42,666 nucleotides of DNA from a virus. A program made the position numbers and the translations under genes. Position 1 is the first letter of the stretch. Each line of letters begins with the position of its first letter. The stretch is taken from IMG/VR virus record IMGVR_UViG_3300025508_000043, positions 1 to 42,666 of that record; one strand, 5' to 3'. The notes below the pieces were generated by a model that worked only from the letters and a program-made list of their open reading frames with translations, ran no database searches and was not told where the DNA came from. Of this stretch, positions 799-21,333 are shown piece by piece.

Positions 799-1557
799 TT
801 ACAGGTAGTCAAGCACTTGTGAGTGGTCTACGTTAGCAATTAATTTATCAACTGCTTGCTTTTTTAGCTGTGAAACTCTAACATAAGCACCACTACCTTC
901 GATACCTAATTTCTCTGCAATTTGCTTGGCAGACTGTTTATCACAGTCAAGACCATAACTAAGCCTTAGTACTTCATATTCTCTATCTACTAAGTGTTGT
1001 TTTAACAAACTTGTTAAGTACATGTTTAAAAATACCTGGTTGTATGGCTCTGACTTGTCTTCAATCTGTAAAAACAGATCGTCATCATCTCTGGTACCAG
1101 CATCAATACTTAGGAATATAGAGTTAAAGAACATAGCTACAGCTTTTTTATCTTTACCAAAGTTCTTACGTATACTATTAGTAACGTGTTCTGGTAATCT
1201 CATTTGACCTCTGTTTTTATCTATCTCTCTACGTATACCGCCTTTAATACGTTTGGCTAAAAAACTTTTTAAAGTTTTCTCAGCATCTTCTGATTCGTTT
1301 ATTCTATCCCAATCAATGCGATCAACTGCTTTAATTAAGTTCAAATGACCTTCTTGTATCATATCAGTTATAGCCATAACGCCTGATGCTTGTTGTGATG
1401 TAGCAAATTTACGTGCTAAGTTTTCTACAAGAGGCATAAACTTAATAATAAGTTCATCTCTAGTATATTCGTCCCACATTTTACCCTCTAGTCTAGCTAA
1501 AGTTGATTCAAGATCTTTCTTGTATCTTATATAGTTCTGTATATTATAGTGTTTCAT
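799..1557 (-). CDS. Sigma-70-like RNA polymerase sigma factor
   Basis: 252 residues. Region 2 is visible at about residues 40-125: LVENLARKFATSQQASGVM, then TDMIQEGHLNLIKAVDRIDW (the D-x-x-Q-E-G-x-x-x-L core-binding helix), followed by FLAKRIKGGIRREIDKNRG and RLPEHV, which resemble region 2.4 and the 2/3 junction. Region 4 lies at about 185-243: LVDREYEVLRLSYGLD, then SAKQIAEKLGI and VRVSQLKKQAVDKL, a helix-turn-helix for -35 recognition. A phage sigma factor can redirect host RNA polymerase to phage promoters. The start codon overlaps the stop of the downstream nucleotidase gene by one base (TAATG). The cognate promoters are unknown; the repeated 34-bp element or the divergent region are candidates. 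Confidence 0.85.
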   Translation of the reverse strand: MKHYNIQNYIRYKKDLESTLARLEGKMWDEYTRDELIIKFMPLVENLARKFATSQQASGVMAITDMIQEGHLNLIKAVDRIDWDRINESEDAEKTLKSFLAKRIKGGIRREIDKNRGQMRLPEHVTNSIRKNFGKDKKAVAMFFNSIFLSIDAGTRDDDDLFLQIEDKSEPYNQVFLNMYLTSLLKQHLVDREYEVLRLSYGLDCDKQSAKQIAEKLGIEGSGAYVRVSQLKKQAVDKLIANVDHSQVLDYL

Positions 1558-1988: not shown

Positions 1989-2080
1989 TTCTTTTTATTT
2001 TTTTCTATTTCTTGTCCTTTTCTAATAGCGTATCCACCTAGTAGAAACGTACCTATTATTATTATTATTAGTGTTATCAT
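1985..2080 (-). CDS. Small single-pass membrane peptide (31 aa)
   Basis: 31 residues, read by hand from ATG at 2078-2080. Residues 2-15 are almost wholly hydrophobic (ITLIIIIIGTFLLGG), followed by a basic and acidic tail ending KNKKK. Its start overlaps the stop of the upstream helix-turn-helix gene by 4 bases and its stop overlaps the nucleotidase ATG (ATGA), the same coupling used by proven neighbours. This supports real translation. A single transmembrane segment with a cytosolic charged tail is expected. Function unknown. Confidence 0.6.
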   Translation of the reverse strand: MITLIIIIIGTFLLGGYAIRKGQEIEKNKKK

Positions 2081-2697
2081 AATTGTTGGTTTAATAATTC
2101 TTTTTCTCGTTTTAATTGTTCACCCATGTTTCTATGTATAGTTCTAGTAGAACATTCTAAATACAATGCTAACTGGGTTATGGTAATCTTTTTACCTAAG
2201 TCGTTTATATCTAACATACACTGGTATATATCATCTTCATGTATACGTTTTGATCTACCTATTAATTCACCTACTATAGATAGTTTTTGTTCTTTAGTTA
2301 AACCACAGCCATACTTAAATATAACTTTACGTAGTTTGTTTTTAGGTGGTTCATCTAAGTCTAACATGCTAACCTCATACACCATCTTTCTAAGAAGATC
2401 GATGTGTATTGTAAACGAAGTGAAACCTTGTTCTTTGACTGATATGATCTCTGCTATCTGCATAAACTCATCTTGATCAAGATCTGGGTTAAGATACCAT
2501 AACGTTAACAAATGCCATTTAAGGCTCTTATAAGTCGTGATCTTAGCTTTAGACGCGAACAGTGTATAACATTCATAAGTACCTTGTTCGAAGAACATAT
2601 ACTTATCGGTTTGATGAGTTGGTACATCATCAACAGGATCTCTCTTATATACGATGCGCCTATCATTTAATAGTTTTATATTTCTTTCGTGTGACAT
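2077..2697 (-). CDS. Protein with C-terminal helix-turn-helix, probable DNA-binding protein
   Basis: 206 residues. The C-terminal part (about 165-200) reads as a helix-turn-helix: ITITQLALYLECSTRTIHRN followed by a basic helix. The first 160 residues are not recognised; they are mixed helical with conserved-looking aromatic and acidic positions (NPDLDQDEFMQIAEIIS). It may be a replication-initiation or regulatory protein acting on phage DNA, but only the DNA-binding motif is visible. It lies upstream of the membrane peptide and nucleotidase genes in the same operon. Confidence 0.75.
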   Translation of the reverse strand: MSHERNIKLLNDRRIVYKRDPVDDVPTHQTDKYMFFEQGTYECYTLFASKAKITTYKSLKWHLLTLWYLNPDLDQDEFMQIAEIISVKEQGFTSFTIHIDLLRKMVYEVSMLDLDEPPKNKLRKVIFKYGCGLTKEQKLSIVGELIGRSKRIHEDDIYQCMLDINDLGKKITITQLALYLECSTRTIHRNMGEQLKREKELLNQQL

Positions 2698-4134: not shown

Positions 4135-4502
4135 TATTTTTTTCCTTTTCTTAATATTTTATTTACTTGTGCCATTCTCCCCTTGATAATAGCACACTTC
4201 TCATATTCCTCTTCTTCTTGAAATAGATTCATTAATGTCATTAGCTTTGCAGCTTCACCTAATGCTTCTTCTTCTTCGGTTAGATCAAGATCTTGATAAG
4301 CAACAGAACCAGCTATATCAGATCTGTTTACGTGATCAAACCAGTCCTCCATAGACTTAAGTTTAACCATTCTACTTACTATCTTGATAGCTAAAGCATT
4401 AAGCTCTGTTTCAGTCATTGGATCGACCTCTACATTCACTACTTTTAGATTATTAATCTCATCTAATATTTGTTTGTTTGTTACACGTTTATTATCCGTC
4501 AT
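4134..4502 (-). CDS. Hypothetical acidic protein, UVR-like C-terminus
   Basis: 122 residues, strongly acidic in the middle (LTEEEEALGEAAK). The C-terminal helix pair, EEEEYEKCAIIKGRMAQVNK, resembles the UVR motif of UvrB and UvrC and related proteins, but this is a short match and could be coincidence. It overlaps the upstream gene by 11 bases and abuts the ligase start. Function unknown. Confidence 0.7.
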   Translation of the reverse strand: MTDNKRVTNKQILDEINNLKVVNVEVDPMTETELNALAIKIVSRMVKLKSMEDWFDHVNRSDIAGSVAYQDLDLTEEEEALGEAAKLMTLMNLFQEEEEYEKCAIIKGRMAQVNKILRKGKK

Positions 4503-4884
4503 TGTTCGTATTTAGTTTGTAATATGATTCTTCTAATTGAGAACCATATTTAGTTAATAATTTTTCTGCCGTACCTACAAAAACACATTCACCATAAAAA
4601 TCTATAAATGGTTTTACTTCAAATATACTTATCCAAGTACTTTTATCATAGTCAGACCATATATAGTATATGTATTCTAGATCACTATGCTGGGTTTGTA
4701 CGTGTTCTATTTCCCAACCATTAATAGGGTCGTTCTTTAATATAGACATAGCTATATCTAGTCCTAACCCTTCAGGATAACCATCACTGTGTTTGTAAAA
4801 CTGCGCGTGTATTTTATCTGGGTGCTCACTGAATGATACACCATCTTCTCTTGTTGCGAATCTAACTTGCGCTCTCGTACTCAT
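4492..4884 (-). CDS. Conserved-type phage protein, 130 aa, STRAQVRF N-terminus
   Basis: 130 residues starting MSTRAQVRFATREDGVSF, with a central YKHSDGYPEGLGLDIA segment. I recognise the combination of an N-terminal 'sTRA.v.f' and a 'y.H.DGYP' element from phage proteins of unknown function. It is acidic and soluble, with no catalytic motif I can defend. The start lies inside the end of the preceding gene (23-base overlap). Confidence 0.75.
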   Translation of the reverse strand: MSTRAQVRFATREDGVSFSEHPDKIHAQFYKHSDGYPEGLGLDIAMSILKNDPINGWEIEHVQTQHSDLEYIYYIWSDYDKSTWISIFEVKPFIDFYGECVFVGTAEKLLTKYGSQLEESYYKLNTNNDG

Positions 4885-5981: not shown

Positions 5982-6350
5982 TTACTCTTGTTCTTCAGAT
6001 GGACACTCAGCTTCAGTAAATAGCTTGTAAACTTCTTTTACAATATTTTCTACTAACTCATGGGTACAAGTTAAGTCTATACTTTCAAGGTATACTTTAC
6101 CATCATACTCCATGCCAAACTCTTTTTCATAGTTATCTTGTTCGTTAAAGCTAAAGTTACCTACACCTTCTTCAATAGCTTCTTGTATCTTGTCAAACTG
6201 TAAAGGAGTCAACTCTGGTTTGTTAATGTCTTCTAGTTTCTTTTCAGTGTCTTGCACTTGCTGTTTAAAGTTTTCATGTTTGATACCTGTTTCAGCTTCT
6301 AGCAACTTTAATGCAGCTAGATTTACTTCTAATTCTTCTTTTGTTTTCAT
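5982..6350 (-). CDS. Hypothetical coiled-coil protein, first gene after promoter element P1
   Basis: 122 residues. Residues 1-50 (MKTKEELEVNLAALKLLEAE and on) are a heptad-like coiled coil; the rest is acidic (FSFNEQDNYEKEFGMEYDG). No function recognised. Its start lies 27 bases downstream of the 9-base box of the first 34-bp promoter-like element, so it is probably the first gene of a leftward transcript reaching toward the recombination genes. Confidence 0.75.
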   Translation of the reverse strand: MKTKEELEVNLAALKLLEAETGIKHENFKQQVQDTEKKLEDINKPELTPLQFDKIQEAIEEGVGNFSFNEQDNYEKEFGMEYDGKVYLESIDLTCTHELVENIVKEVYKLFTEAECPSEEQE

Positions 6351-6377
6351 ACTATTTAATTTAATTTATTTATATTC

Positions 6378-6411
6378 ATATTATCCGACTGTTGTCGTAT
6401 TTAGTTTGTAA
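6378..6411 (-). promoter_or_regulatory. 34-bp promoter-like element, copy P1
   Basis: Minus strand: 17-base box TTACAAACTAAATACGA (6395-6411), 8 variable bases, then GGATAATAT (6378-6386). It is one of seven copies with identical internal spacing. GGATAATAT resembles a -10 box. The start of the next gene is 27 bases downstream. The upstream end touches the acceptor strand of the tRNA-like element. Confidence 0.75.
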
Positions 6412-6490
6412 CTAGAAAAGGATTCGAACCTTTTAATCCGTCGATCAGCACACTTGTGTTGTTTACCACCTTGGTGAGCCAGCTCTAGTT
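6410..6490 (-). tRNA. tRNA-like element with 7-bp acceptor stem and T-arm, anticodon arm not resolved
   Basis: On the minus strand the 5' heptamer AACTAGA pairs perfectly with the 3' heptamer TCTAGTT, 81 nt end to end. Before the 3' heptamer lies a perfect 5-bp T-stem with a canonical loop (AAAGG TTCGAAT CCTTT). A GGTGGTAAA segment could belong to a D-loop. I could not place a 5-bp anticodon stem with a 7-base loop: the middle is about 9 bases longer than usual and no register pairs. It may be an unusual or decayed tRNA, or a tRNA mimic ending the upstream transcript. No CCA is encoded. Confidence 0.4.
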
Positions 6491-6498
6491 TTATAAAA

Positions 6499-6668
6499 CG
6501 AGGTGTGCAGGTGTGGTTCACCGATTGCGGTTGGATTCAGTGGAGGGCTAAGAACCTCATACACTTACTGTTACCGATTTTCGGTTGCTTTATCCTGACT
6601 TTAACAAGTTGACCGCGACTTTCATTATATTACTAATCTCTCGCCTACTTGATTTACCACTCACCTCG
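6499..6668 (-). ncRNA. Candidate structured RNA closed by a 7-bp terminal stem
   Basis: This stretch begins and ends with exact complements: CGAGGTG on the minus strand at 6668-6662 and CACCTCG at 6505-6499. Inside are more pairings: a hairpin ACCGA/TCGGT around a 3-base loop, GAGG/CCTC around an 8-base loop, GGTG/CACC around a 5-base loop, and a long-range GCGGTT/GACCGC match. No open frame longer than a few codons crosses it and it is markedly more GC-rich than its surroundings. Strand is assumed from gene direction. It is not recognisable as RNase P, 6S or tmRNA from its conserved bases. Confidence 0.35.
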
Positions 6669-6706
6669 TATATTATTTATACCATACAGCGTACACTTTA
6701 CATCCG

Positions 6707-6853
6707 CTAGGAGTTGTACACGCGTGTACTCTTTTCTTTTCTACCTTGTTGTTTAACAGGCTTTTGTCCATGTATTTTGGATTCTTGCTGTTTAGCTTTC
6801 TTTTCTTCATATTTCTCTAAGTTCTTTATTAATTTTTTATTCTGTCTACCCAT
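6707..6853 (-). CDS. Hypothetical 48-aa highly basic protein
   Basis: Read from ATG at 6851-6853 to TAG at 6707-6709. It starts MGRQNKKLIKNLEKYEEKKA and stays Lys/Gln/Arg-rich throughout. The start overlaps the upstream stop by one base (TAATG), the common arrangement here. A small basic protein of this kind may bind nucleic acid, but no domain is recognised. Confidence 0.6.
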   Translation of the reverse strand: MGRQNKKLIKNLEKYEEKKAKQQESKIHGQKPVKQQGRKEKSTRVYNS

Positions 6854-7386
6854 TATTCTGATATTCTATTTATTGTTGCTAATTTGTTTTGTAAATCATA
6901 TAGTTTTTCTTCTAGTTTTACTGAATACTTGTTTGAGCTAGCTTTTTCTAACTCCCACTCGTGTTGCCACTTAGATATAAATTTACCACCTGCTACTTCA
7001 TTAGCTCGTTTGATGTAATAGTTTTTGAGACAATAGCTTATTAAATACTCTAGTCTATCGATCTCGATAGGTATTAGTACACACGATCTAGTGCTAAATC
7101 TTCTGTAATCACCATTAGGTAATTCAAAATATTCTGGTTCACCTTGACATCTTTTGTTTAGTTGATAGTTACTGTAACCACTGTTTTGATTTCTTACGTA
7201 ACCAGTTTTAAAACTAGCTACTTCGATCAGTTTACCATTCTTCCAATTATTCTTGATCGGTAATTTCCATACTATTGTACCATTTTTGTGCTGTCTCATT
7301 GTGGTGACATCCATTATTCCTAACAAATCCATATTGTGAAGTACTTTTTCGTATCTAGTGTCGCTGTTGTATTTTGCTCTATTCAT
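6853..7386 (-). CDS. Hypothetical protein, 177 aa
   Basis: 177 residues starting MNRAKYNSDTRYEKVLHNMD. The centre is beta-rich and polar (GTIVWKLPIKNNWKNGKLI) and the C-terminus is a basic coiled coil. Its substantial length and normal composition argue that it is real. No family recognised. It is followed after one base by the next gene of the operon. Confidence 0.75.
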   Translation of the reverse strand: MNRAKYNSDTRYEKVLHNMDLLGIMDVTTMRQHKNGTIVWKLPIKNNWKNGKLIEVASFKTGYVRNQNSGYSNYQLNKRCQGEPEYFELPNGDYRRFSTRSCVLIPIEIDRLEYLISYCLKNYYIKRANEVAGGKFISKWQHEWELEKASSNKYSVKLEEKLYDLQNKLATINRISE

Positions 7387-7387
7387 C

Positions 7388-7690
7388 TTATCTATATTTT
7401 ATTGATTCTATTTTACTTGTTCCTGAGTTTATCATAGCGAAAACTTCATCCCAATCGCCTTCATCAGCGATCCACTCGATATCGTCTTTACGCCACTCTG
7501 TTTGAAAGTTACTATAAGCTTGACCGTGACAGTTTATTTTGTAATCACCATCCTCGTTTTCTTTGATTGTCCACCTAGACCTGTTATCACACGTTGCACT
7601 TACTAGATCGATCTTCATCTCTCTAGGCTTTACTCCAAAGTCTATATCTAACATTGGTGGTTTTCTTAATAATTCTCCGTATTTGCTCAT
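7388..7690 (-). CDS. Hypothetical protein, 100 aa
   Basis: 100 residues starting MSKYGELLRKPPMLDIDFGV. Rich in Asp, Glu and Trp (the C-terminal third reads EWRKDDIEWIADEGDWDEVF), hence strongly acidic. Small acidic early phage proteins are sometimes inhibitors or DNA mimics, but nothing here proves that. Tightly spaced between neighbours. Confidence 0.7.
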   Translation of the reverse strand: MSKYGELLRKPPMLDIDFGVKPREMKIDLVSATCDNRSRWTIKENEDGDYKINCHGQAYSNFQTEWRKDDIEWIADEGDWDEVFAMINSGTSKIESIKYR

Positions 7691-7691
7691 A

Positions 7692-7904
7692 TTATCTATA
7701 TTTTTTACTGTGACTTAATGCTTTTTTAGTTGTAAAGTCATCTAATTTATTTTGTACTTGTTCTATCATTTGTAACCAGTACTCTCTAGTAATGATCGGT
7801 CTCTTGTCCATTAATTCTGCATCGTCTTGATTCTTATGCATTTCTGCTGTGAAAGTGTCTACCATCTCGTCTAGCACTATTCTATCTTGTATATTAAATT
7901 TCAT
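7692..7904 (-). CDS. Hypothetical protein, 70 aa
   Basis: I start this gene at the ATG at 7902-7904 (MKFNIQDRIVLDEMVDTF) because it overlaps the upstream stop by one base (TAATG), the arrangement used by its neighbours. A start 14 codons earlier at 7946 is possible but would overlap the upstream gene by 43 bases. The protein is helical with a basic C-terminus (KKALSHSKKYR). Function unknown. Confidence 0.65.
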   Translation of the reverse strand: MKFNIQDRIVLDEMVDTFTAEMHKNQDDAELMDKRPIITREYWLQMIEQVQNKLDDFTTKKALSHSKKYR

Positions 7905-8095
7905 TAGTTGTCGTAGATATAAGTTAAACCTTTGTAATTGAACCAACTACTGATACCTTCTTTGTTGTTAAATTCTAGACAACCGAAGTTAGCAGGTAAG
8001 TCACATATTGTATATGGCTTATAAGTTATGCCGTTAAGCTTAATTTTTTGTTTACCAGTACTTTGATCTGGTTTTAGGAATTTGATTGTTTGCAT
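7904..8095 (-). CDS. Hypothetical 63-aa protein, possible relative of the 11766-11996 product
   Basis: 63 residues starting MQTIKFLKPDQSTGKQKIKL, then LNGITYKPYTICDLPANFG. The pattern 'K(I/L)KLN..Y.PY.I.(D/N)LP..F' recurs in the product of 11766-11996, suggesting two diverged copies of one small early protein. It is the first gene after promoter element P2, 20 bases from its 9-base box. Beta-rich, function unknown. Confidence 0.65.
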   Translation of the reverse strand: MQTIKFLKPDQSTGKQKIKLNGITYKPYTICDLPANFGCLEFNNKEGISSWFNYKGLTYIYDN

Positions 8096-8115
8096 ATTAT
8101 TTATTTTATTTAATT

Positions 8116-8149
8116 ATATTATCCGTTAGTATTCGTATTTAATTTGTAA
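8116..8149 (-). promoter_or_regulatory. 34-bp promoter-like element, copy P2
   Basis: Minus strand: TTACAAATTAAATACGA (8133-8149), 8 variable bases, GGATAATAT (8116-8124). One base differs from the consensus in the long box. Its upstream end adjoins the stop codon of the 8150-8395 gene (TAA followed by TTACAA), so the element starts right at a gene end. Confidence 0.75.
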
Positions 8150-8395
8150 TTACTTTATTATTAGTTTATATTCACCTGATTTATACTCTTCACGATCGAG
8201 AGCATACTCCATTGGAAACTCTTGATGAGTTTTAAATGAAGAATAACCGTCTTTAGTATCTCTAGTTATCTCTATTGTACCATATCCTGGCCAATGAGGG
8301 TTTTTATCTACTTCAACTACTATTACCTTATAATCTTTCTTGTTCTCATCTCTTGGAATTGAAAACCATAGTCTTTTTAGTTCTTCTCTATTCAT
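8150..8395 (-). CDS. Hypothetical protein, 81 aa
   Basis: 81 residues starting MNREELKRLWFSIPRDENKK. Alternating strands rich in Lys, Glu and Tyr (YKVIVVEVDKNPHWPGYGTI) suggest a small beta domain. No family recognised. It overlaps the upstream small gene by 8 bases and is the last gene before element P2. Confidence 0.65.
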   Translation of the reverse strand: MNREELKRLWFSIPRDENKKDYKVIVVEVDKNPHWPGYGTIEITRDTKDGYSSFKTHQEFPMEYALDREEYKSGEYKLIIK

Positions 8396-8525
8396 TTTTC
8401 TTATGTTTTATTTTTCTTGTATATATTTTCTTACTAACAAATACTCTAGTACCTGGTGTACTAACACCTTGCTCGAGTTGTACTCGTCTTTTGACACTTC
8501 GTTTTTGTTTATTAGTTAATTTCAT
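8388..8525 (-). CDS. Hypothetical 45-aa very basic protein
   Basis: Read from ATG at 8523-8525 to TAG at 8388-8390. It starts MKLTNKQKRSVKRRVQLEQG and ends KIYTRKIKHKKNE. About a third of residues are Lys or Arg. TAATG coupling to the upstream gene and an overlap with the downstream gene support translation. It resembles a ribosomal-protein-like or nucleic-acid-binding peptide, but no specific family is claimed. Confidence 0.6.
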   Translation of the reverse strand: MKLTNKQKRSVKRRVQLEQGVSTPGTRVFVSKKIYTRKIKHKKNE

Positions 8526-8734
8526 TAGCCTAGCATAGTACCATAACCTTTACGACGAGTTAGTTTTGCTATTTTTTTAGCATCTTCACTTGACATAATT
8601 TGTATGGAATTACCTGTTTTGTGATTAATTACTGGTGCACAACCATACGCTTCGACTGAAGAGCAGTTGACACAGACTTTGAAGCCGAGACGTAGTCGAC
8701 CTTCTGGTATTATATTTTTACATTTGCATTTCAT
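8525..8734 (-). CDS. Putative zinc-ribbon protein, 69 aa
   Basis: I choose ATG at 8732-8734 (MKCKCKNIIPEGRLRLGFKV). A longer frame exists only by using TTG inside promoter element P3. Cysteine pairs C-x-C at residues 3-5 and C-x-x-C at about 21-24 (CVNC) suggest one zinc site. The rest is GRLRLGFKVCVNCS, HKTGN and a basic C-terminus (KLTRRKGYGTMLG), a combination I recall from uncharacterised phage proteins. The start codon lies only 4 bases after the -10-like box of P3, so the message may have almost no leader. Confidence 0.65.
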   Translation of the reverse strand: MKCKCKNIIPEGRLRLGFKVCVNCSSVEAYGCAPVINHKTGNSIQIMSSEDAKKIAKLTRRKGYGTMLG

Positions 8735-8738
8735 ATAT

Positions 8739-8772
8739 ATATTATCCAACAGTGTTCGTATTTAATTTGTAT
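8739..8772 (-). promoter_or_regulatory. 34-bp promoter-like element, copy P3
   Basis: Minus strand: ATACAAATTAAATACGA (8756-8772), 8 variable bases, GGATAATAT (8739-8747). The downstream ATG at 8734 follows after only 4 bases, the shortest distance of the seven copies (others 20-53). Confidence 0.75.
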
Positions 8773-8836
8773 ATTCATCTAGTAAATGACTACCAATCAT
8801 AGCGGTAATCAGTATAAGTATTATCCACGCTCCCAT
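8762..8836 (-). CDS. Possible 24-aa membrane peptide
   Basis: ATG at 8834-8836 overlaps the upstream stop by one base (TAATG). The frame reads MGAWIILILITAMIGSHLLD then EYTN and stop: one hydrophobic segment and a short polar tail. The stop codon lies within promoter element P3. The overlap favours translation, but at this length chance is not excluded. Confidence 0.35.
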   Translation of the reverse strand: MGAWIILILITAMIGSHLLDEYTN

Positions 8837-9222
8837 TATAATTTGATCGCTAATCTTGGTTTACCAACTGATACTTTTGTTGTACCTTGAGGTGTGTAGT
8901 AAACTTTATGGTTACTATCTAGTATATCTTGTCTAGTAGTTCCATCGAAGAAAGTTGTTATAACTTTTCTTACTCTTTTCTTATCGTCACTCAAATCTAA
9001 ACATAGTGTATTACCATATTCAATTGGTATTTCATAAAATTTACCTATATTCTCTACTTGAAGCTCACCACCTGATTTAAAGTCTACTACATATAAAATA
9101 GTATCCATTTGGTAATTAAATTCAAATACATCTTTTCCTTTAAAATACGTACAAGTCGTATCTTGTGCTTTAGCTGACAGAATTGCTGCCACTAAACCAA
9201 TGCTTAATGTTAATTTCTTCAT
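8836..9222 (-). CDS. Exported protein with N-terminal signal peptide, 128 aa
   Basis: 128 residues. MKKLTLSIGLVAAILSAKAQ is a typical signal peptide with a probable AKA-Q cleavage site after about residue 19. The mature part (about 109 aa) is beta-rich, with YQMDTILYVVDFKSGGEL and DGTTRQDILDSNHKVYYTP. It would be periplasmic or released from the cell. Its first seven residues are identical to those of the other exported protein at 10000-10275. It belongs to a cluster of exported proteins. Function unknown. Confidence 0.7.
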   Translation of the reverse strand: MKKLTLSIGLVAAILSAKAQDTTCTYFKGKDVFEFNYQMDTILYVVDFKSGGELQVENIGKFYEIPIEYGNTLCLDLSDDKKRVRKVITTFFDGTTRQDILDSNHKVYYTPQGTTKVSVGKPRLAIKL

Positions 9223-9242
9223 ATTTTATTTATTTATTTAGT

Positions 9243-9713
9243 TTATAACCAAGTTAATGGCTTTAATTTCATTCCTAAAGTACTGTCTCCATCTAAATAT
9301 TTATCTAAAAACATTTGTACTCCTTCATCACCATTTTCATGGTATAATTCTTTTAGTTCATCTATATAGTCCCAACCCCACACTTCAGACATACTATTTA
9401 TTGAGTGAGGAAATAACATGTATTCAGCTTTTAATGAAGGTGGCGATTTATCATCTTCAACTCCACTCAAATCATATAATATTGGTGATAAGAATATCGG
9501 TTTACTCGGGTCATAAGAGTCAAATCCCTTAATTTTTCTGATACACTCGGCATCACTCATTCCTTCAGACCAACTAATATTTCCACCTAACTGAATATCA
9601 GTCGGGTTGTCAGCATACACTGGTTGACCATAGTTTCTTGCCCAATTAGGCTCTTTTGTACACGAGCTAAATAATATACTTAGCGCTAATACACTTCTTG
9701 TTATTTTCTTCAT
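9243..9713 (-). CDS. Predicted lipoprotein, 156 aa
   Basis: 156 residues. MKKITRSVLALSILFSSCTK carries a lipobox-like F-S-S-C with the lipidated cysteine at residue 18. The mature part is acidic and Asp/Ser/Pro-rich with no recognised domain (GGNISWSEGMSDAECIRKI, then WGWDYIDELKELYHENGDEG). In Bacteroidetes such proteins are anchored to the inner or outer membrane. Phage lipoproteins made early sometimes block superinfection by other phages, which is a possibility here but not shown. Confidence 0.75.
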   Translation of the reverse strand: MKKITRSVLALSILFSSCTKEPNWARNYGQPVYADNPTDIQLGGNISWSEGMSDAECIRKIKGFDSYDPSKPIFLSPILYDLSGVEDDKSPPSLKAEYMLFPHSINSMSEVWGWDYIDELKELYHENGDEGVQMFLDKYLDGDSTLGMKLKPLTWL

Positions 9714-9729
9714 AATTTTATATTTTTAG

Positions 9730-9778
9730 TGATAGTGCAGGACTCGAACCTGCTCGATTATTCGGCCGCCTTTCTATC
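9730..9778 (-). other. tRNA T-arm and acceptor-like element overlapping a lipoprotein gene end
   Basis: On the minus strand, GCAGG TTCGAGT CCTGC (9737-9753) is a perfect T-stem with a canonical T-loop, followed by an acceptor-like ACTATCA. The only upstream complement in reach is GATAG at 9774-9778, which contains the stop codon of the small lipoprotein gene. That leaves about 20 bases for D and anticodon arms, far too few for a normal tRNA. It is either a tRNA fragment or a short tRNA mimic at a transcript end. Confidence 0.4.
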
Positions 9779-9884
9779 TGTATGCTGGACAGTTTGAACT
9801 CCAAGCATTTCTTTGATTACAACTTGTAGTTGCACAACTTGATAACAGTAATATTACCGCTATAATTCCAATTAATTTTTTCAT
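9774..9884 (-). CDS. Small lipoprotein, 36 aa
   Basis: Read from ATG at 9882-9884 to TAG at 9774-9776. MKKLIGIIAVILLLSSCATT is a clear lipoprotein signal with lipobox L-S-S-C, the cysteine at residue 17. The mature peptide would be only about 20 residues with two more cysteines. This matches the size class of lysis-type or superinfection-exclusion lipoproteins of other phages, a comparison by size only. ATGA overlap with the upstream membrane protein gene. Confidence 0.65.
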   Translation of the reverse strand: MKKLIGIIAVILLLSSCATTSCNQRNAWSSNCPAYR

Positions 9885-9997
9885 AGTCTATTTATTACTG
9901 TTATTAACGCGAACACTATTGCTCCCGCTGTTCCTACTCCAAGGCTATATGTAAATGTTAGCATTACGTAGTGTACAAATTTTTGCTTATTACTCAT
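9881..9997 (-). CDS. Small membrane protein, 38 aa
   Basis: Read from ATG at 9995-9997 to TGA at 9881-9883. MSNKQKFVHYVMLTFTYSLG is followed by a hydrophobic stretch (VGTAGAIVFALITVIN), giving one or two membrane passes. Its stop overlaps the lipoprotein ATG (ATGA), so the two are probably co-translated. Function unknown. Confidence 0.6.
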   Translation of the reverse strand: MSNKQKFVHYVMLTFTYSLGVGTAGAIVFALITVINRL

Positions 9998-9999
9998 AA

Positions 10000-10275
10000 T
10001 TAATCTTTTTTAGGTGTGTGTAAATAACACAATTGGTTAGTATTTTTAGTTTTATTCTTACAGTTTCTACCTGATTTAGTAGTTCCAGTACATATTTTTG
10101 CTGGTACTTTTACCTCATCTTTATAGAATGGATTATGTAAATAACACAAACTATTTTTAGCTTTAGTATTATTCTTACATTGAACACTATCTGTAGTCAA
10201 TTCTTTACATTGAGTTTGACCATAACTCATCATTGCAATTGTTAGTGCTGCGACACTTAAAGTTAATTTCTTCAT
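10000..10275 (-). CDS. Exported cysteine-rich protein with two Cys/His repeats (DUF5763-like)
   Basis: 91 residues. MKKLTLSVAALTIAMMSYGQ is a signal peptide with probable cleavage before Q20. The mature part has two tandem copies of a Cys3-His pattern: C-K-E-L-T-T-x-S-V-Q-C-K-N-x-T-K-x6-C-Y-L-H and C-T-G-T-T-K-S-G-R-N-C-K-N-K-T-K-x6-C-Y-L-H. I recognise this as the small zinc-binding-type repeat of the DUF5763 kind found in Bacteroidetes, from memory. Export of such a unit suggests an envelope or periplasmic role. Confidence 0.75.
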   Translation of the reverse strand: MKKLTLSVAALTIAMMSYGQTQCKELTTDSVQCKNNTKAKNSLCYLHNPFYKDEVKVPAKICTGTTKSGRNCKNKTKNTNQLCYLHTPKKD

Positions 10276-10276
10276 T

Positions 10277-10537
10277 TTACATTATTTTAGTTATATTATT
10301 TTTTTCATCTATTTTCTTACAATCTTGGATTGCTCTGTACAATAATTCTTGTGAGTCAACTGAGTTAAACCAGTCTTCTTTTAACCACACATAGTAAATC
10401 CACTCGTTCGCTTCGCTCGCAGTTTCAAAATAGTTCTGATATTTGTTACCATAACTATCTACTACTCGAGTATCATACCACTCACCTTTTTTTCTTGTTA
10501 TACTATAATCTCTCATATTAATACTTTGTTGTACCAT
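10277..10537 (-). CDS. Hypothetical protein, 86 aa (or 79 aa)
   Basis: 86 residues from ATG at 10537. A second ATG at 10514-10516 (MRDYSITRKKGEWYDTR) would avoid the 20-base overlap with the upstream gene and is equally plausible. Aromatic-rich, with a WIYYVWLKEDWFN segment and an acidic/basic C-terminal helix. No family recognised. Confidence 0.65.
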   Translation of the reverse strand: MVQQSINMRDYSITRKKGEWYDTRVVDSYGNKYQNYFETASEANEWIYYVWLKEDWFNSVDSQELLYRAIQDCKKIDEKNNITKIM

Positions 10538-10730
10538 TTTTATTTATTAGTTTATTCAACCACTCATCAATTTCTTTATACTTATTATTTGTGTGATTTT
10601 CTAATAGTAATTCATATTTAGTTAATTCTATCTCACTTTTATCTTGTAAACCAAATTTATTTGACATTTCTTTTACTAGTCTCAAGTTTGAAATCATTTC
10701 TCTTAATTCTATCTCACTATATTCTATCAT
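10518..10730 (-). CDS. Hypothetical helical protein, 70 aa
   Basis: 70 residues starting MIEYSEIELREMISNLRLVK. Predicted nearly all helical with heptad-like leucines (EIELTKYELLLENHTN). Its ATG overlaps the stop of the preceding 27-codon frame (ATGA). Function unknown. Confidence 0.65.
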   Translation of the reverse strand: MIEYSEIELREMISNLRLVKEMSNKFGLQDKSEIELTKYELLLENHTNNKYKEIDEWLNKLINKNGTTKY

Positions 10731-10810
10731 AATTCTAATTTTAATTGATTAGGATTTACTTTTTCTTTTTCTTTTTTATACTGTTTCCAGTGTTCTAATG
10801 TTTCATACAT
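10727..10810 (-). CDS. Possible 27-aa peptide
   Basis: Frame from ATG at 10808-10810 to TGA at 10727-10729, starting MYETLEHWKQYKKEKEKVNP. The ATGA overlap with the next gene is the main support. Charged and helical. Confidence 0.4.
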   Translation of the reverse strand: MYETLEHWKQYKKEKEKVNPNQLKLEL

Positions 10811-10815
10811 AGTTT

Positions 10816-10947
10816 TTAATTTTTTAATAAATAAGTTAAGTCATCAACAGTTGTTTCTAACCATTTTTCTTGACATTCATTTTGATTATACTTAAAAATA
10901 TTATTTAATAATAGTTTTAATAATTTAATTTTAATTGTTTCTAACAT
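10816..10947 (-). CDS. Hypothetical 43-aa protein after element P4
   Basis: Frame from ATG at 10945-10947 to TAA at 10816-10818, starting MLETIKIKLLKLLLNNIFKY and ending in an acidic helix. It is the first frame after promoter element P4, whose 9-base box ends 36 bases upstream. The very AT-rich sequence makes Leu/Ile/Asn/Lys dominate. Confidence 0.5.
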   Translation of the reverse strand: MLETIKIKLLKLLLNNIFKYNQNECQEKWLETTVDDLTYLLKN

Positions 10948-10983
10948 ACTTTATTTATTTATATTTATAATTTATTTTCAGTT

Positions 10984-11017
10984 ATATTATCCAATACTAG
11001 TCGTATTTAGTTTGTAT
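10984..11017 (-). promoter_or_regulatory. 34-bp promoter-like element, copy P4
   Basis: Minus strand: ATACAAACTAAATACGA (11001-11017), 8 variable bases, GGATAATAT (10984-10992). It lies just downstream of the tRNA-like element at 11024, the same juxtaposition as P1. Confidence 0.75.
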
Positions 11018-11023
11018 AATTTG

Positions 11024-11132
11024 TTGTAGAGTGAGAATCGAACTCACAAAAACCATTACTACAGTGTACTCCAAATACTTGGTCATTCATATTTTATAGT
11101 GGGAAATGTACTCAACTACCACTTTTGTACAT
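11024..11132 (-). other. tRNA T-arm and acceptor-like element upstream of P4
   Basis: On the minus strand a perfect T-stem and loop GTGAG TTCGATT CTCAC (11031-11047) is followed by TCTACAA (11024-11030). No perfect 5' partner exists; ATGTACA at 11126-11132 pairs 5 of 7, giving 109 nt, which is long for a tRNA. Between them are other hairpins: AGTGG/CCACT with a bulge, and CCAA/TTGG around four bases. It is gene-free and sits between a gene stop (11148) and promoter P4. Confidence 0.4.
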
Positions 11133-11147
11133 GAAAATTACTTACTA

Positions 11148-11399
11148 TTATTCAGTAATTGTTTGTAATTCTCTACAGAATTTTGGTACACAATTTGTAT
11201 TTGTATAACTTTTATACTTTTCAAAACAATTCATACTTTCAAATTTCTCTTTATGAGTATTATATACTTCATCATGATTATAAGAAACAATTTCTTGTTT
11301 TTTGTTAGTAAATGTAATTACTACATTTTTACCAATTAATGACTTTCTGATTACGAATCTTTTAGTTTTAAGTTCTTCAACTTTGTTTAATTTTGACAT
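11148..11399 (-). CDS. Hypothetical basic protein, 83 aa
   Basis: 83 residues starting MSKLNKVEELKTKRFVIRKS, with NVVITFTNKKQEIVSYNHDE and three cysteines in the second half. No domain recognised. It is the first gene after promoter element P5 (53 bases from the 9-base box) and is followed by the tRNA-like element. Confidence 0.65.
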   Translation of the reverse strand: MSKLNKVEELKTKRFVIRKSLIGKNVVITFTNKKQEIVSYNHDEVYNTHKEKFESMNCFEKYKSYTNTNCVPKFCRELQTITE

Positions 11400-11452
11400 A
11401 ATTTATTTATTTTAAGTTATTTATTAATTTATTATTTATTTGTTTTACATTT

Positions 11453-11486
11453 ATATTATCCATTTACATTCGTATTTACATTGTAA
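11453..11486 (-). promoter_or_regulatory. 34-bp promoter-like element, copy P5
   Basis: Minus strand: TTACAATGTAAATACGA (11470-11486), 8 variable bases, GGATAATAT (11453-11461). Two positions of the long box differ from the consensus, the ACGA end and the 9-base box do not. Upstream lies a short C-rich patch (11520-11555) with GTTCAC occurring twice, the only GC-rich spot nearby. Confidence 0.7.
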
Positions 11487-11560
11487 AAGTATATATTTTA
11501 TTTATTTGATATTTATAGTGTTCACCCACTACCCCGACTCTCACTGTTCACAGTTGTAAT

Positions 11561-11701
11561 TTAATTTACATTTGTAACTTTTGTTATACTTATTACATTT
11601 GATAATTCAGTGAATATTGAAATTTCATGTAGTATTGTTTGTATATCAGTATTTGTATAAACTTTGTCTGAGAAATATTTTATTTTTACTTTGTAATTCA
11701 T
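11561..11701 (-). CDS. Hypothetical 46-aa protein after element P6
   Basis: Frame from ATG at 11699-11701 to TAA at 11561-11563, starting MNYKVKIKYFSDKVYTNTDI. Predicted beta strand then helix. It follows promoter element P6 by 26 bases. No family recognised; very AT-rich. Confidence 0.5.
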   Translation of the reverse strand: MNYKVKIKYFSDKVYTNTDIQTILHEISIFTELSNVISITKVTNVN

Positions 11702-11727
11702 ATTATTTTTATTTATTTGTTTCATAT

Positions 11728-11761
11728 ATATTATCCAATATACTTTGTATTTAGTTTGTAA
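11728..11761 (-). promoter_or_regulatory. 34-bp promoter-like element, copy P6
   Basis: Minus strand: TTACAAACTAAATACAA (11745-11761), 8 variable bases, GGATAATAT (11728-11736). It differs from the consensus only in ACGA being ACAA. Confidence 0.75.
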
Positions 11762-11765
11762 TTTA

Positions 11766-11996
11766 TTATTTAATATTATTAGAATTTATATTTGAATAAT
11801 TTAAAGTTTGAATATAATTTGTTTGATATTTTTTATTAAAGTTATTTGAATTAATATATATTATTGTATTTATTTTTATTATTGAATTGATTGGAAATGT
11901 TTCAAATTTATTTGGAAGATTATGAATTAAATAAGGAAAATATATTTGATTATTTAATTTTAATATTTGATTTGATTTGAATTTTAATTTGTTCAT
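11766..11996 (-). CDS. Hypothetical 76-aa protein, first leftward gene
   Basis: 76 residues starting MNKLKFKSNQILKLNNQIYF, then PYLIHNLPNKFETFPINS. Extreme AT content makes it almost wholly Asn, Ile, Lys, Leu and Tyr. The N-terminal half keeps the pattern of the 7904-8095 product (LKLNxxxYxPYxIxxLPxxF), which supports a real protein. The second half is low-complexity. It follows element P7 by 44 bases and is therefore probably the first leftward gene expressed. Confidence 0.55.
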   Translation of the reverse strand: MNKLKFKSNQILKLNNQIYFPYLIHNLPNKFETFPINSIIKINTIIYINSNNFNKKYQTNYIQTLNYSNINSNNIK

Positions 11997-12040
11997 AATT
12001 TTATTATTTTATTTATTATTATTATTTTGTATTTCTATAT

Positions 12041-12074
12041 ATATTATCCAATGTAAGTCGTATTAAGTTTGTAA
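12041..12074 (-). promoter_or_regulatory. 34-bp promoter-like element, copy P7
   Basis: Minus strand: TTACAAACTTAATACGA (12058-12074), 8 variable bases, GGATAATAT (12041-12049). One base differs from the consensus in the long box. It is the outermost copy and faces the leftward genes. Confidence 0.75.
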
Positions 12075-12087
12075 TGTAATGTAAAAT

Positions 12088-12096
12088 GGATAATAT
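12088..12096 (+). promoter_or_regulatory. Rightward GGATAATAT box, candidate late or divergent promoter
   Basis: The same 9-base -10-like box occurs once on the plus strand, 13 bases beyond the end of P7. The 17-base upstream box is not found at the matching distance; that space is occupied by P7 itself. It could serve as a -10 for rightward genes with a different upstream contact. The first rightward start codon is about 250 bases away. Confidence 0.35.
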
Positions 12097-14127: not shown

Positions 14128-15696
14128 ATGGAATACAATCAACCAAGCGAGATTGTCAAAGACGTAAACTTTGGCGATAACGCAAATAGTAAAATAGTAG
14201 CTGGTGTTGAAAAACTAGCTAAAGCAGTAAAATCAACCCTTGGAGCATCTGGAAAGTGCGTTATATACGAAGACGCCAGAGGACTTCCGGTCATAACAAA
14301 AGACGGAGTAACAGTAGCAGAATCTGTTGTCTTATTTGACCCGGTTGAAAATATGGGTGCAACCCTTATTAAAGAAGCTGCTAGAAATACAGTGAGAGAA
14401 GCAGGTGACGGTACTACTACAGCTACCGTCCTTGCTGAATCACTATTAAAAGAAGTTAGCAAGAGTGAAGCTAACACAAGAGAAATTAAAGACGGGATTA
14501 AATCCGGTCTTAAGAAGGTAAACGATTACCTAGATAAGATTTCTGTCAAGATCGAAGGCGATATGCTCGAATCTGTTAGTTCAATAAGTTGCAATAATGA
14601 TGCGGAACTAGGTGAGATTATAGCGGAAGCTTATACTAAAGTAGGTAAAGATGGTGTGGTATTAATGGAAGAGTCTCCAACTGAAGAGACATACGTCGAG
14701 GTAGTTGACGGTGTTCAAATCGACTCAGGACTCACATCCCCACATTTCGTTACTGATAAGGACAAGCAGATAGCTGAGCTTGATAACCCATTAGTATTAA
14801 TAGTATCTTCAGAAATACCTAACATAAGAAAAATACAAACAGTATTAGAGCATGTTATAAAAACTAAACGTTCTTTACTGATCGTCGCCCCTGTAGAACA
14901 ACAGGTTAAAGCTGCACTTCTTATGAATAAGGTAAAAGGTAATATTAAAGTAAACATCGTTGACTTACCAGGCTTTGGTCCTACTAAAGATGATACTGTT
15001 GCGGATCTTGCTTTTTTAGTTGGGGCAACCGTCATAAATGAGCAGTTGGGTGATGATTTAGATCTTATAGATATAAATTGCTTAGGTGAAGCTTACTCAG
15101 CAATAACTGACGATAAGAATACAGTTCTTACTATAGAAACTCCAGAAGACGAATTAGAAGAAAGAATTAAAAGTATACAGAAGTTAATAGATAAAGAGGA
15201 CAAAAACCCGTTTATACAAAAGAAACACAGACAAAGACTAGCTATGCTGTCAGGATCTGTTGGAATGGTTAAAGTAGGTGCTGATTCAAAGGTAGAGCTT
15301 AAAGAAAAGAAAGATAGGATAGAAGATGCTATTTACGCTACAAAAGCTGCTCTGAAAGAAGGTATTGTACCAGGTGGTGGAGTTGCACTGTTAAACGCAT
15401 CTCAAAAAATCCCCGCTAAAGCGGTAGGTGAAAAGATACTACTAAAAGCTATTCAAGCTCCTTTCTATACTGTACTTGATAATGCTGGCATCCATTTAAT
15501 GGAAGGCACTGAAGATCACGAAGGTTACGGTATAGATGTGGTAACTGGTGAAAGAGCTACAATGATATCAGCTGGTATTATAGATCCAGTACTTGTAACC
15601 AAGTCCGCACTTAAAAATGCAGTGAGTGTAGTATCAACAATTATATCTGCAGATTGTGTAATTTCAAATATGAGAATGAATGAAAGCAATCAATAG
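14128..15696 (+). CDS. groEL: Phage-encoded chaperonin GroEL (Cpn60)
   Basis: 522 residues. Conserved GroEL elements in order: ITKDGVTVAESV near 52, GDGTTTATVLAES near 88-100 (nucleotide binding), apical-domain segment VDGVQIDSGLTSPHFVTD near 190, LPGFGPTKDD near 275, KEKKDRIEDAIYATKAALKE near 393 (catalytic Asp), GIVPGGGVALL near 414, GIDVVTGE and IIDPVLVTKSALKNAVSV near the end. The equatorial, intermediate and apical domains are all present. It is about 25 residues shorter than E. coli GroEL and lacks the Gly-Gly-Met tail. It probably folds capsid or tail proteins together with the adjacent GroES, whose gene it overlaps by 17 bases. Confidence 0.93.
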   Translation: MEYNQPSEIVKDVNFGDNANSKIVAGVEKLAKAVKSTLGASGKCVIYEDARGLPVITKDGVTVAESVVLFDPVENMGATLIKEAARNTVREAGDGTTTATVLAESLLKEVSKSEANTREIKDGIKSGLKKVNDYLDKISVKIEGDMLESVSSISCNNDAELGEIIAEAYTKVGKDGVVLMEESPTEETYVEVVDGVQIDSGLTSPHFVTDKDKQIAELDNPLVLIVSSEIPNIRKIQTVLEHVIKTKRSLLIVAPVEQQVKAALLMNKVKGNIKVNIVDLPGFGPTKDDTVADLAFLVGATVINEQLGDDLDLIDINCLGEAYSAITDDKNTVLTIETPEDELEERIKSIQKLIDKEDKNPFIQKKHRQRLAMLSGSVGMVKVGADSKVELKEKKDRIEDAIYATKAALKEGIVPGGGVALLNASQKIPAKAVGEKILLKAIQAPFYTVLDNAGIHLMEGTEDHEGYGIDVVTGERATMISAGIIDPVLVTKSALKNAVSVVSTIISADCVISNMRMNESNQ

Positions 15697-15937
15697 ATAT
15701 ATTATAGTAGACAGAATAAAGACAGAGCCTAAAAAGGTTGCTGGTCTTATAATGACGGATGATACAGATGTAGACAACCGTTATATAAAAGCAAAAATAA
15801 TATCGTGTGGTAATCTTGTAGAAGGTTTAAAAGATGGTGATACGATATATTATGATAAACATGCTGGACACGACATATCATGGAAAGATGTACTTTACCG
15901 GGTCATTCGTGATGGTGACGTAGTTCTAGTAGATTAA
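15680..15937 (+). CDS. groES: Phage-encoded co-chaperonin GroES (Cpn10)
   Basis: 85 residues, starting MKAINRYIIVDRIKTEPKKV. The mobile-loop region at about residues 15-33 keeps a hydrophobic AGLIM like the GGIVL of E. coli GroES, the part that docks to GroEL. IISCGNLVEGLKDGDTIYYDKH matches the 'v...G.......vk.GD.V.y....g' barrel strand pattern, and YRVIRDGDVVLVD matches the C-terminal 'y.i....ilai'. It is slightly shorter than host GroES (97). The roof loop is reduced. Translationally coupled to the GroEL gene. Confidence 0.85.
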   Translation: MKAINRYIIVDRIKTEPKKVAGLIMTDDTDVDNRYIKAKIISCGNLVEGLKDGDTIYYDKHAGHDISWKDVLYRVIRDGDVVLVD

Positions 15938-20011: not shown

Positions 20012-20743
20012 ATGGCTTATAAACAAAAAAACAATCCTTTCAAGAAAACTACCGAGCCAACTACAGGTGGTAATTCCAATTCAAACGATATTGAGCTAGC
20101 TAAAAGGTTAAACAAACTTAGGTTTGATATGGGTCATATTTACCCTATTACATCTGAAGAAGAGGTGATGCAGGAAAGACAAGAAACATTTACAGGACGA
20201 GGTAAAGCATTTTGGGAAGAAAACCCAAATTTAAAAGAAAAAAGCATTAAAGGGAGTTTGGACAGGACAGCTCAATCGGAAAAAGAAAGAAACGAGTTGT
20301 ATAAGTTGGATCCCTCTGGTAGAGGAACAACACAAGCGGGTGACAAGTACACGTATGACAAAGATTTGCAATTTATAAAAACAGCTAGAGAAGCTGGTGG
20401 TGATGTTTTTAACAAAGTCATGAATATGCCAGAACAAGATATTGTTCGTCTTGAGCAAGATATAATTGCTATAGCACAACCCTTTAGAGGTAAAAATCTT
20501 GGTAAAAATCCAACGGCTACATTAATAGAGTTAAAGGATTTAGATTTAACTAAGTTTAAACCATACTTACAAAAGAGTGGTTTAACAGTAGAAGATATAA
20601 GCAAAGTTATAACCTCTCAATTAAACAATCAACCTGACTTAAACAAAGATGGAACTCCAGACGCGTTTGAAGGAATAAAGGGCAAGATACTTAAAAAAGG
20701 TGTAGATTATTTAATTTCTAGCAAATTAGATCAGTTAAGATAA
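20012..20743 (+). CDS. Late protein with NPFKK N-terminus and calcium-loop-like motif, 243 aa
   Basis: 243 residues starting MAYKQKNNPFKKTTEPTTGG. The middle is helical (VMQERQETFTGRGKAFWEEN). Near residues 212-222 NKDGTPDAFEGI has the D/N-x-D-G-x-x-D spacing of a calcium-binding loop (dockerin or thrombospondin-3 type). The basic N-terminus loosely belongs to the shared-tag group. Its stop overlaps the next start (TAATG). Function unknown; probably structural. Confidence 0.65.
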   Translation: MAYKQKNNPFKKTTEPTTGGNSNSNDIELAKRLNKLRFDMGHIYPITSEEEVMQERQETFTGRGKAFWEENPNLKEKSIKGSLDRTAQSEKERNELYKLDPSGRGTTQAGDKYTYDKDLQFIKTAREAGGDVFNKVMNMPEQDIVRLEQDIIAIAQPFRGKNLGKNPTATLIELKDLDLTKFKPYLQKSGLTVEDISKVITSQLNNQPDLNKDGTPDAFEGIKGKILKKGVDYLISSKLDQLR

Positions 20744-21333
20744 TGAAAAGCGTTTACAATTTTGTTGTAAAACCAAAAGGACAAAGATATAACAATACTA
20801 AAAAGTTTGATGGTGGAGAATTAATCCTTAACACGGATATATTTCAACACCAGTATGTTAACAGGGAAGCTATTGTAATATCAACACCTATAATTGGTGA
20901 TACAGATATAAAACCAGGAGATACAGTTATAGTACACCACAATGTTTTTAGAAGATGGAATGACGTTAAAGGTGTAGAAAGAAACAGTAAGTCTTATTTT
21001 AACGAAGATACTTACTTTATAAACCACGAACAAATCTTTTTGTATAAACAAGAAGACAAGTGGATAGCTCCAAAAGGATATTGCTTTGTAATACCTTTAA
21101 AAGCTACAGATCAGTTTAACACTGAATCTGAAAAACCTTTACAAGGTATTGTCAAATATTCTGACGGTACAGTTAAAGTTAACGAGCTAGTTGGTTTTAG
21201 GCCAAATAGTGAATATGAGTTTATCGTTGATGGCGAGAGACTATTTCGAGTTTTATCTAATTTTATTACAATCAAATATGAACATCAAGGAAACGAAGAA
21301 GAGTATAATCCAAGCTGGGCACAAAGCAGTTGA
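20743..21333 (+). CDS. GroES-like beta-barrel candidate, 196 aa
   Basis: 196 residues starting MKSVYNFVVKPKGQRYNNTK. The run GGELILNTDI, then NREAIVISTPIIGDTDIKPG and DTVIVHHNVFRRW mirrors GroES: an 'xLIL' flexible segment, a 'v.s.p......kpGD.V....' strand pair, and a later 'YFINHEQIFLY' in place of 'i....ilai'. I recall similar phage proteins left uncharacterised. It lacks the short mobile-loop sequence of the true GroES here. An alternative is an unrelated beta barrel. It sits just before the terminase genes. Confidence 0.55.
   Translation: MKSVYNFVVKPKGQRYNNTKKFDGGELILNTDIFQHQYVNREAIVISTPIIGDTDIKPGDTVIVHHNVFRRWNDVKGVERNSKSYFNEDTYFINHEQIFLYKQEDKWIAPKGYCFVIPLKATDQFNTESEKPLQGIVKYSDGTVKVNELVGFRPNSEYEFIVDGERLFRVLSNFITIKYEHQGNEEEYNPSWAQSS

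Follow-up and report, generated by a model that had tools for sequence, protein, structure and literature searches.

The 34-bp element repeated on the minus strand of the analysed DNA is very probably a promoter recognized by a phage-encoded factor of the sigma-70 family, which would work with the RNA polymerase core of the host. This reading was drawn from the sequence, namely from the element, its spacing, a start-site signature, the sigma gene and the co-occurrence of this gene with the element. In the proposed mechanism, GGATAATAT would be the −10 region read by sigma region 2, with a contact reaching −5, and RNA would start at the purine located 5 nt past this box. A −35 element would be replaced by the 17-bp upstream box (−38 to −22), which is probably bound by sigma region 4 plus a phage partner, or by the partner instead, and the candidate for this role is an adjacent helix-turn-helix protein. 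Eight such promoters would drive a block of leftward genes situated ahead of those for sigma and replication, and a start codon coinciding with +1 would make the mRNA leaderless. Binding, the role of the partner, leaderless translation and the timing of expression are predicted steps of this mechanism.

The window, i.e. the whole stretch of DNA analysed, corresponds to an IMG/VR record with a length of 42,666 bases. This is probably only part of the genome of a podophage of about 65 kb, since relatives with the same gene order measure 65–69 kb. The terminase shares 63% identity with that of MW202828 (a circular phage genome of 60.9 kb) and 45% with those of Flavobacterium phages of the genus Elemovirus. 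The relatives of the window phage are chiefly uncultured marine contigs, no cultured phage carrying the element was found, and the phage group with the element probably infects marine flavobacteria, that is, Bacteroidetes hosts. The window also has a phage-encoded GroEL of 522 aa (14128–15937, plus strand), followed by a small ORF that is the counterpart of the GroES annotated in MW202828, and a second GroES-like PHROG match (20743–21333) adjoins the terminase gene. Finally, a protein of 3022 aa (31615–40683, plus strand) with fibronectin III and crAss muzzle C-terminal domains provides a link to the tails of crAss-like phages.

Scanning of the window with up to 3 mismatches identified eight copies of TTACAAACTAAATACGA-N8-GGATAATAT, all on the minus strand, while the number expected by chance was 0 (100 dinucleotide shuffles). 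The putative promoters and associated features of this region are the following:

4489–4522, minus strand: eighth copy of the element, with GGATAATAA replacing GGATAATAT; predicted +1 at 4484 (G)
6378–6411, minus strand: putative promoter with the exact consensus; predicted +1 at 6373 (A), gene at 5982–6350
8116–8149, minus strand: putative promoter; predicted +1 at 8111 (A), gene at 7904–8095
8525–8734, minus strand: Cys-rich ORF of 69 aa (MKCKCKNII...) with its ATG at the predicted +1
8739–8772, minus strand: putative promoter of the leaderless class; predicted +1 at 8734, the A of the ATG
10984–11017, minus strand: putative promoter; predicted +1 at 10979 (G), gene at 10816–10947
11453–11486, minus strand: putative promoter; predicted +1 at 11448 (GTAA start), gene at 11148–11399
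11728–11761, minus strand: putative promoter; predicted +1 at 11723 (G), gene at 11561–11701
12041–12074, minus strand: putative promoter, the most upstream of the leftward region; predicted +1 at 12036 (A), gene at 11766–11996
12088–12096, plus strand: perfect GGATAATAT 9-mer without a matching upstream box, facing the rightward genes

A previous sequence-only reading had listed seven of these copies, and their coordinates, strand and 17-8-9 layout were all borne out; the total had to be raised to eight by the copy at 4489–4522, in which the first ATG of an ORF of at least 30 codons lies 70 nt past the box. The gap of 20–53 bases between element and gene which that reading had proposed applies to six of its seven copies, the other being that at 8739–8772, where the ATG is found 4 nt past the box. 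In addition, the 9-base box had been considered invariant, and this is true for its GATAATA core; the first and last bases of the 9-mer vary in the wider family, so the invariant core is GATAATA. The search of the rest of the genome and of relatives for the same layout, which had been suggested there, yielded the eighth window copy and, among the matches listed, more than 100 IMG/VR viral contig stretches with the element. Divergent copies on the other strand occur in about 9 of 56 related loci, mostly 66–108 nt from the first leftward element, and some relatives bear a full divergent element where the window has the bare GGATAATAT at 12088–12096.

Sequences like the T-arm of tRNAs were also observed on the minus strand at about 6460–6412, 9760–9720 and 11047–11031 (TTCGAATCC, TTCGAGTCC and GTGAGTTCGATTCTCAC), two of them immediately or shortly ahead of the copies at 6378 and 10984. 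One such stretch of 17 nt gave a weak match to the tmRNA T-arm (E 0.077), and no tRNA or structured RNA was detected by ARAGORN or by Rfam at the gathering threshold.

The layout of the element is fixed. Over 721 distinct copies, the upstream box occupies −38 to −22, followed by 8 bp and by GGATAATAT at −13 to −5. When both boxes were searched in 1.65 Mb of related phage DNA, 313 occurrences were found at a spacing of 8 and none at spacings of 3–7 or 9–14. As several copies lie within one region, iterons or packaging signals could be thought of instead of promoters. However, the irregular distances between copies, their single orientation tied to the direction of the genes and the start-site signature described below make this interpretation hardly credible. 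A search of 84,980 bacterial and archaeal genomes for the exact pattern gave only six matching stretches, two of which (L222 and L226) encode proteins of these phages. L224 and L225 belong to chromosomes of flavobacterial MAGs and carry an orthologous copy of the element ahead of a gene starting MKTKITIATLL. This single chromosomal copy in two flavobacterial MAGs counts against the interpretation as a promoter of the phage sigma factor.

The set of 721 copies had been selected on the TAATACGA half and GATAATA alone, with no condition on the downstream bases. After GGATAATAT, 4 nt are followed by a purine in 713 of the 721 copies (395 A and 318 G) and, once near-copies had been removed, +1 was a purine in 581 of 586. 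T is nearly excluded from this position, though common on both sides of it, and G accounts for 46% at +1 and for only a few percent at the neighbouring positions. Moreover, position −1 is mostly T in the whole set and is T or C in 464 of the 586 non-redundant copies, and the purine signature holds also in copies without an ATG at +1. In the window, each of the eight copies combines a purine at +1 with T at −1. Counted from the purine, GATAAT occupies −12 to −7, where a −10 element is canonically found, giving a −10 hexamer with A-11 and T-7 and a purine start 7 nt after T-7. The boxes of flavobacterial sigma-A also extend from −12 to −5 and transcription starts 4–5 nt later (PMC6847099; PMC9723704). 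GGATAATAT and the purine would hence be a −10 box and a transcription start arranged as in host sigma-A promoters, though the box has another sequence. The signature is placed just after the 9-base box, exactly 5 nt on, where the sequence-only reading had expected transcripts to begin.

These data bear on the strongest rival explanation, which owes this place to the AATACGA core of the upstream box. According to it, a T7-like single-subunit phage polymerase would read TAATACGA and start at the GG of GGATAATAT, which would be the initially transcribed sequence; the upstream box resembles the core of the T7 promoter, AATACGAC, and the copy at 12041 reads TAATACGACTTACATTGG. However, a start at GG leaves both the purine peak 5 nt past the box and the ATG found there unaccounted for, and TACGA is replaced in some lineages in which GATAATA is kept. 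In addition, no member of the RNA_pol family (PF00940) was found in eight related contigs or in MW202828, which are possibly incomplete records, whereas the phage T7 control was detected at about 1e-109. Such a polymerase, which had been considered on account of the likeness of TAATACGACTCACTATAGG, was rejected by this T7-controlled search and by the position of the start, and we regard it as very unlikely. As for a giant virion RNA polymerase of the N4 or crAss type, no polymerase family was found with Pfam and PHROGs in those late proteins of about 2,300–3,900 residues that were scanned.

The position of the start codons defines a further class of putative promoters. Considering ORFs of at least 40 codons, the ATG lies at +1 in 134 of the 721 copies, one base upstream in 1 and one base downstream in 7, and the leaderless share amounts to 87 of 586 non-redundant copies (15%, about one in seven). 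Leaderless mRNAs are predicted at these promoters because the start codon sits exactly at +1, and from this coincidence we infer leaderless translation. In the window, this class is represented by the Cys-rich ORF at 8525–8734, which has homologues in 6 of the 7 genomes compared. In three loci (L228, L243 and L271) it is the sigma gene itself which begins exactly at +1 behind an element, and its start codon is secure since the N-terminus MK-YN is conserved among homologues. About a third of the leadered promoters start their predicted RNA with GTAA, and leaders elsewhere are A/T-rich and mostly short. In related loci, the GTAA starts often follow AAAT, which produces ATGTAA in the DNA at the junction. 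A start codon directly followed by a stop was considered for the boxes with ATGTAA behind them and was discarded, GTAA being taken as the RNA start.

The gene encoding the candidate reader of the −10 box is located in the same window:

799–1557, minus strand: phage sigma factor of the sigma-70 family, 252 aa, with region 2 at residues 38–116 and region 4 at 188–239

Both sigma regions were detected by Pfam with scores at or just below the cut-off, the ORF was linked to a PHROG sigma family through its homologue, and it matched sigma factors of the PDB (SigA) by sequence and by fold. The Trp-Trp pair of SigA (region 2.3–2.4) aligns with K102-R103 of the phage protein, and the residues that we take to read position −12 align with G106 and R109. 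All four residues are invariant among 42 sigma homologues and would fit, as we infer, the replacement of T by G at −12.

The element was present in 57 of 59 sigma loci, each with at least 6 kb of upstream sequence, the other two (L239 and L259) having recognisable variants of it, and 406 of 416 copies lie on the sigma strand. Neither MW202828 nor Flavobacterium phage elemoA has a copy of the element, and neither was among the tblastn matches listed for this sigma in the phage collection. This co-occurrence may partly reflect descent, because the phages that lack both sigma and element are also less closely related. Together with the start-site signature, it points to the phage-specific sigma contact which had been suggested from the sequence. 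No element is found directly ahead of the sigma gene of the window, and a search for host-type promoters in the window gave four loose matches only, none of them convincing as the start of a cascade.

A variant promoter read by host sigma-A, or by an alternative host sigma, would explain the host-like geometry of the −12 to −5 box and of its distance to +1. However, the element travels with the phage sigma, its six matches among bacterial and archaeal genomes contrast with the more than 100 among the viral contigs listed, and TTTG/TAHHTTTG is missing. The TAHHTTTG box is in no window copy, each of them having GATAATAT or GATAATAA, and in this respect the layout differs from the host Bacteroidetes promoter just as had been noticed. 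We consider reading by a host sigma very improbable, and the promoter of a phage sigma factor remains our preferred interpretation.

The upstream box differs by lineage while GATAATA and the sigma recognition helix persist. Most of the boxes are of the ACAAAC...TACGA type, and TCGAAA...TAATACGA, ATAAGTTTGACACGA, CACGGACTTAT and CCCCTAACTAAATAC were also found. The recognition stretch of region 4 is SASYVRISELKKQAV in both L314 and L312 and their boxes are unlike (ACAAAC and TCGAAA, respectively), an indication that the recognition helix of sigma region 4 does not read this part of the box. In addition, the conserved box extends to −22, downstream of the usual limit of contacts by sigma region 4. 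A possible reader of this box is encoded beside sigma:

2077–2697, minus strand: protein of 206 aa with a C-terminal helix-turn-helix, conserved beside sigma; candidate reader of the upstream box

Of 86 sigma loci, 82 encode this protein (AlphaFold pLDDT 90), and in 54 its gene overlaps that of sigma. The TCGAA box is carried by seven of the eight loci that lack the protein and by none of the loci listed as having it; the exception is L314, whose 52-kb contig lacks the gene and yet has the ACAAAC box. The association with box type represents few events, since the loci without the protein are neighbours in the sigma tree. No MotA-like match was obtained for it in PHROGs, nor any PDB match with Foldseek at E 0.001, and a gene confined to the TCGAA-box phages was sought with no clear candidate. 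As the box changes between lineages and both the −10 box and the sigma helix are constant, a partner may read it, and it is plausible that this partner is the helix-turn-helix protein. The full division of labour, with sigma reading the −10 box only, the adjacent DNA-binding protein reading an upstream box that switches between lineages, and a sizeable leaderless share, is proposed tentatively.

The upstream box might also be an operator for a phage repressor or activator, overlapping otherwise ordinary promoters, as the sequence-only reading had admitted. The 17-bp box is long, lies partly inside the spacer and varies among lineages independently of the sigma recognition helix. However, it is not palindromic, its spacing is rigid, and the −10 box is equally invariant and not host-type. 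An operator would cover the upstream half at most, and only for this box is the proposal possible; as an account of the whole element it is improbable.

If the phage sigma promoter is accepted, base-resolved promoters, start sites and a cognate sigma become available for a large and mostly uncultured phage group, whose transcription would thus be readable from sequence. The promoter and sigma variants would form a natural series for studying how sigma and a partner split promoter recognition, and the leaderless class would provide a set of predicted leaderless messages in hosts which do not use Shine-Dalgarno signals.

Promoters of phage-encoded sigma factors are known from T4 (gp55, late) and SPO1 (gp28, middle). 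As in those systems, the phage sigma would redirect the host core polymerase to phage-specific promoters. Unlike gp55 and gp28, the sigma described here retains regions 2 and 4, its promoter has a long and strongly conserved upstream box, and the hosts are probably Bacteroidetes, with another −10 geometry and no Shine-Dalgarno. The AATACGA core is shared with the T7 class promoters, by chance or convergence; unlike in these, the start lies 5 nt past GGATAATAT and not directly after the recognition box, and no single-subunit polymerase was found. The architecture is similar in T4 middle promoters, which depend on sigma appropriation by MotA and AsiA (PMC2988021): a strict −10 box and, centred near −30, a phage-specific box in place of the −35 element, a role which the upstream box would play here. 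However, the distance from box to −10 is 12 ± 1 bp there and a fixed 9 bp here, the sigma itself is phage-coded here, and the helix-turn-helix protein has no MotA match in PHROGs. Finally, the element resembles the Bacteroidetes sigma-A promoter (TTTG / TAHHTTTG) in its 8-bp box at −12 to −5 and its start 4–5 nt on (PMC6847099; PMC9723704), but differs in the box itself (GATAATAT, with only A-11 and T-7 in common), in its unrelated upstream box and in a predicted leaderless share of 15% of non-redundant copies, against the 5.5% of mRNAs measured as leaderless in F. psychrophilum (PMC9723704).
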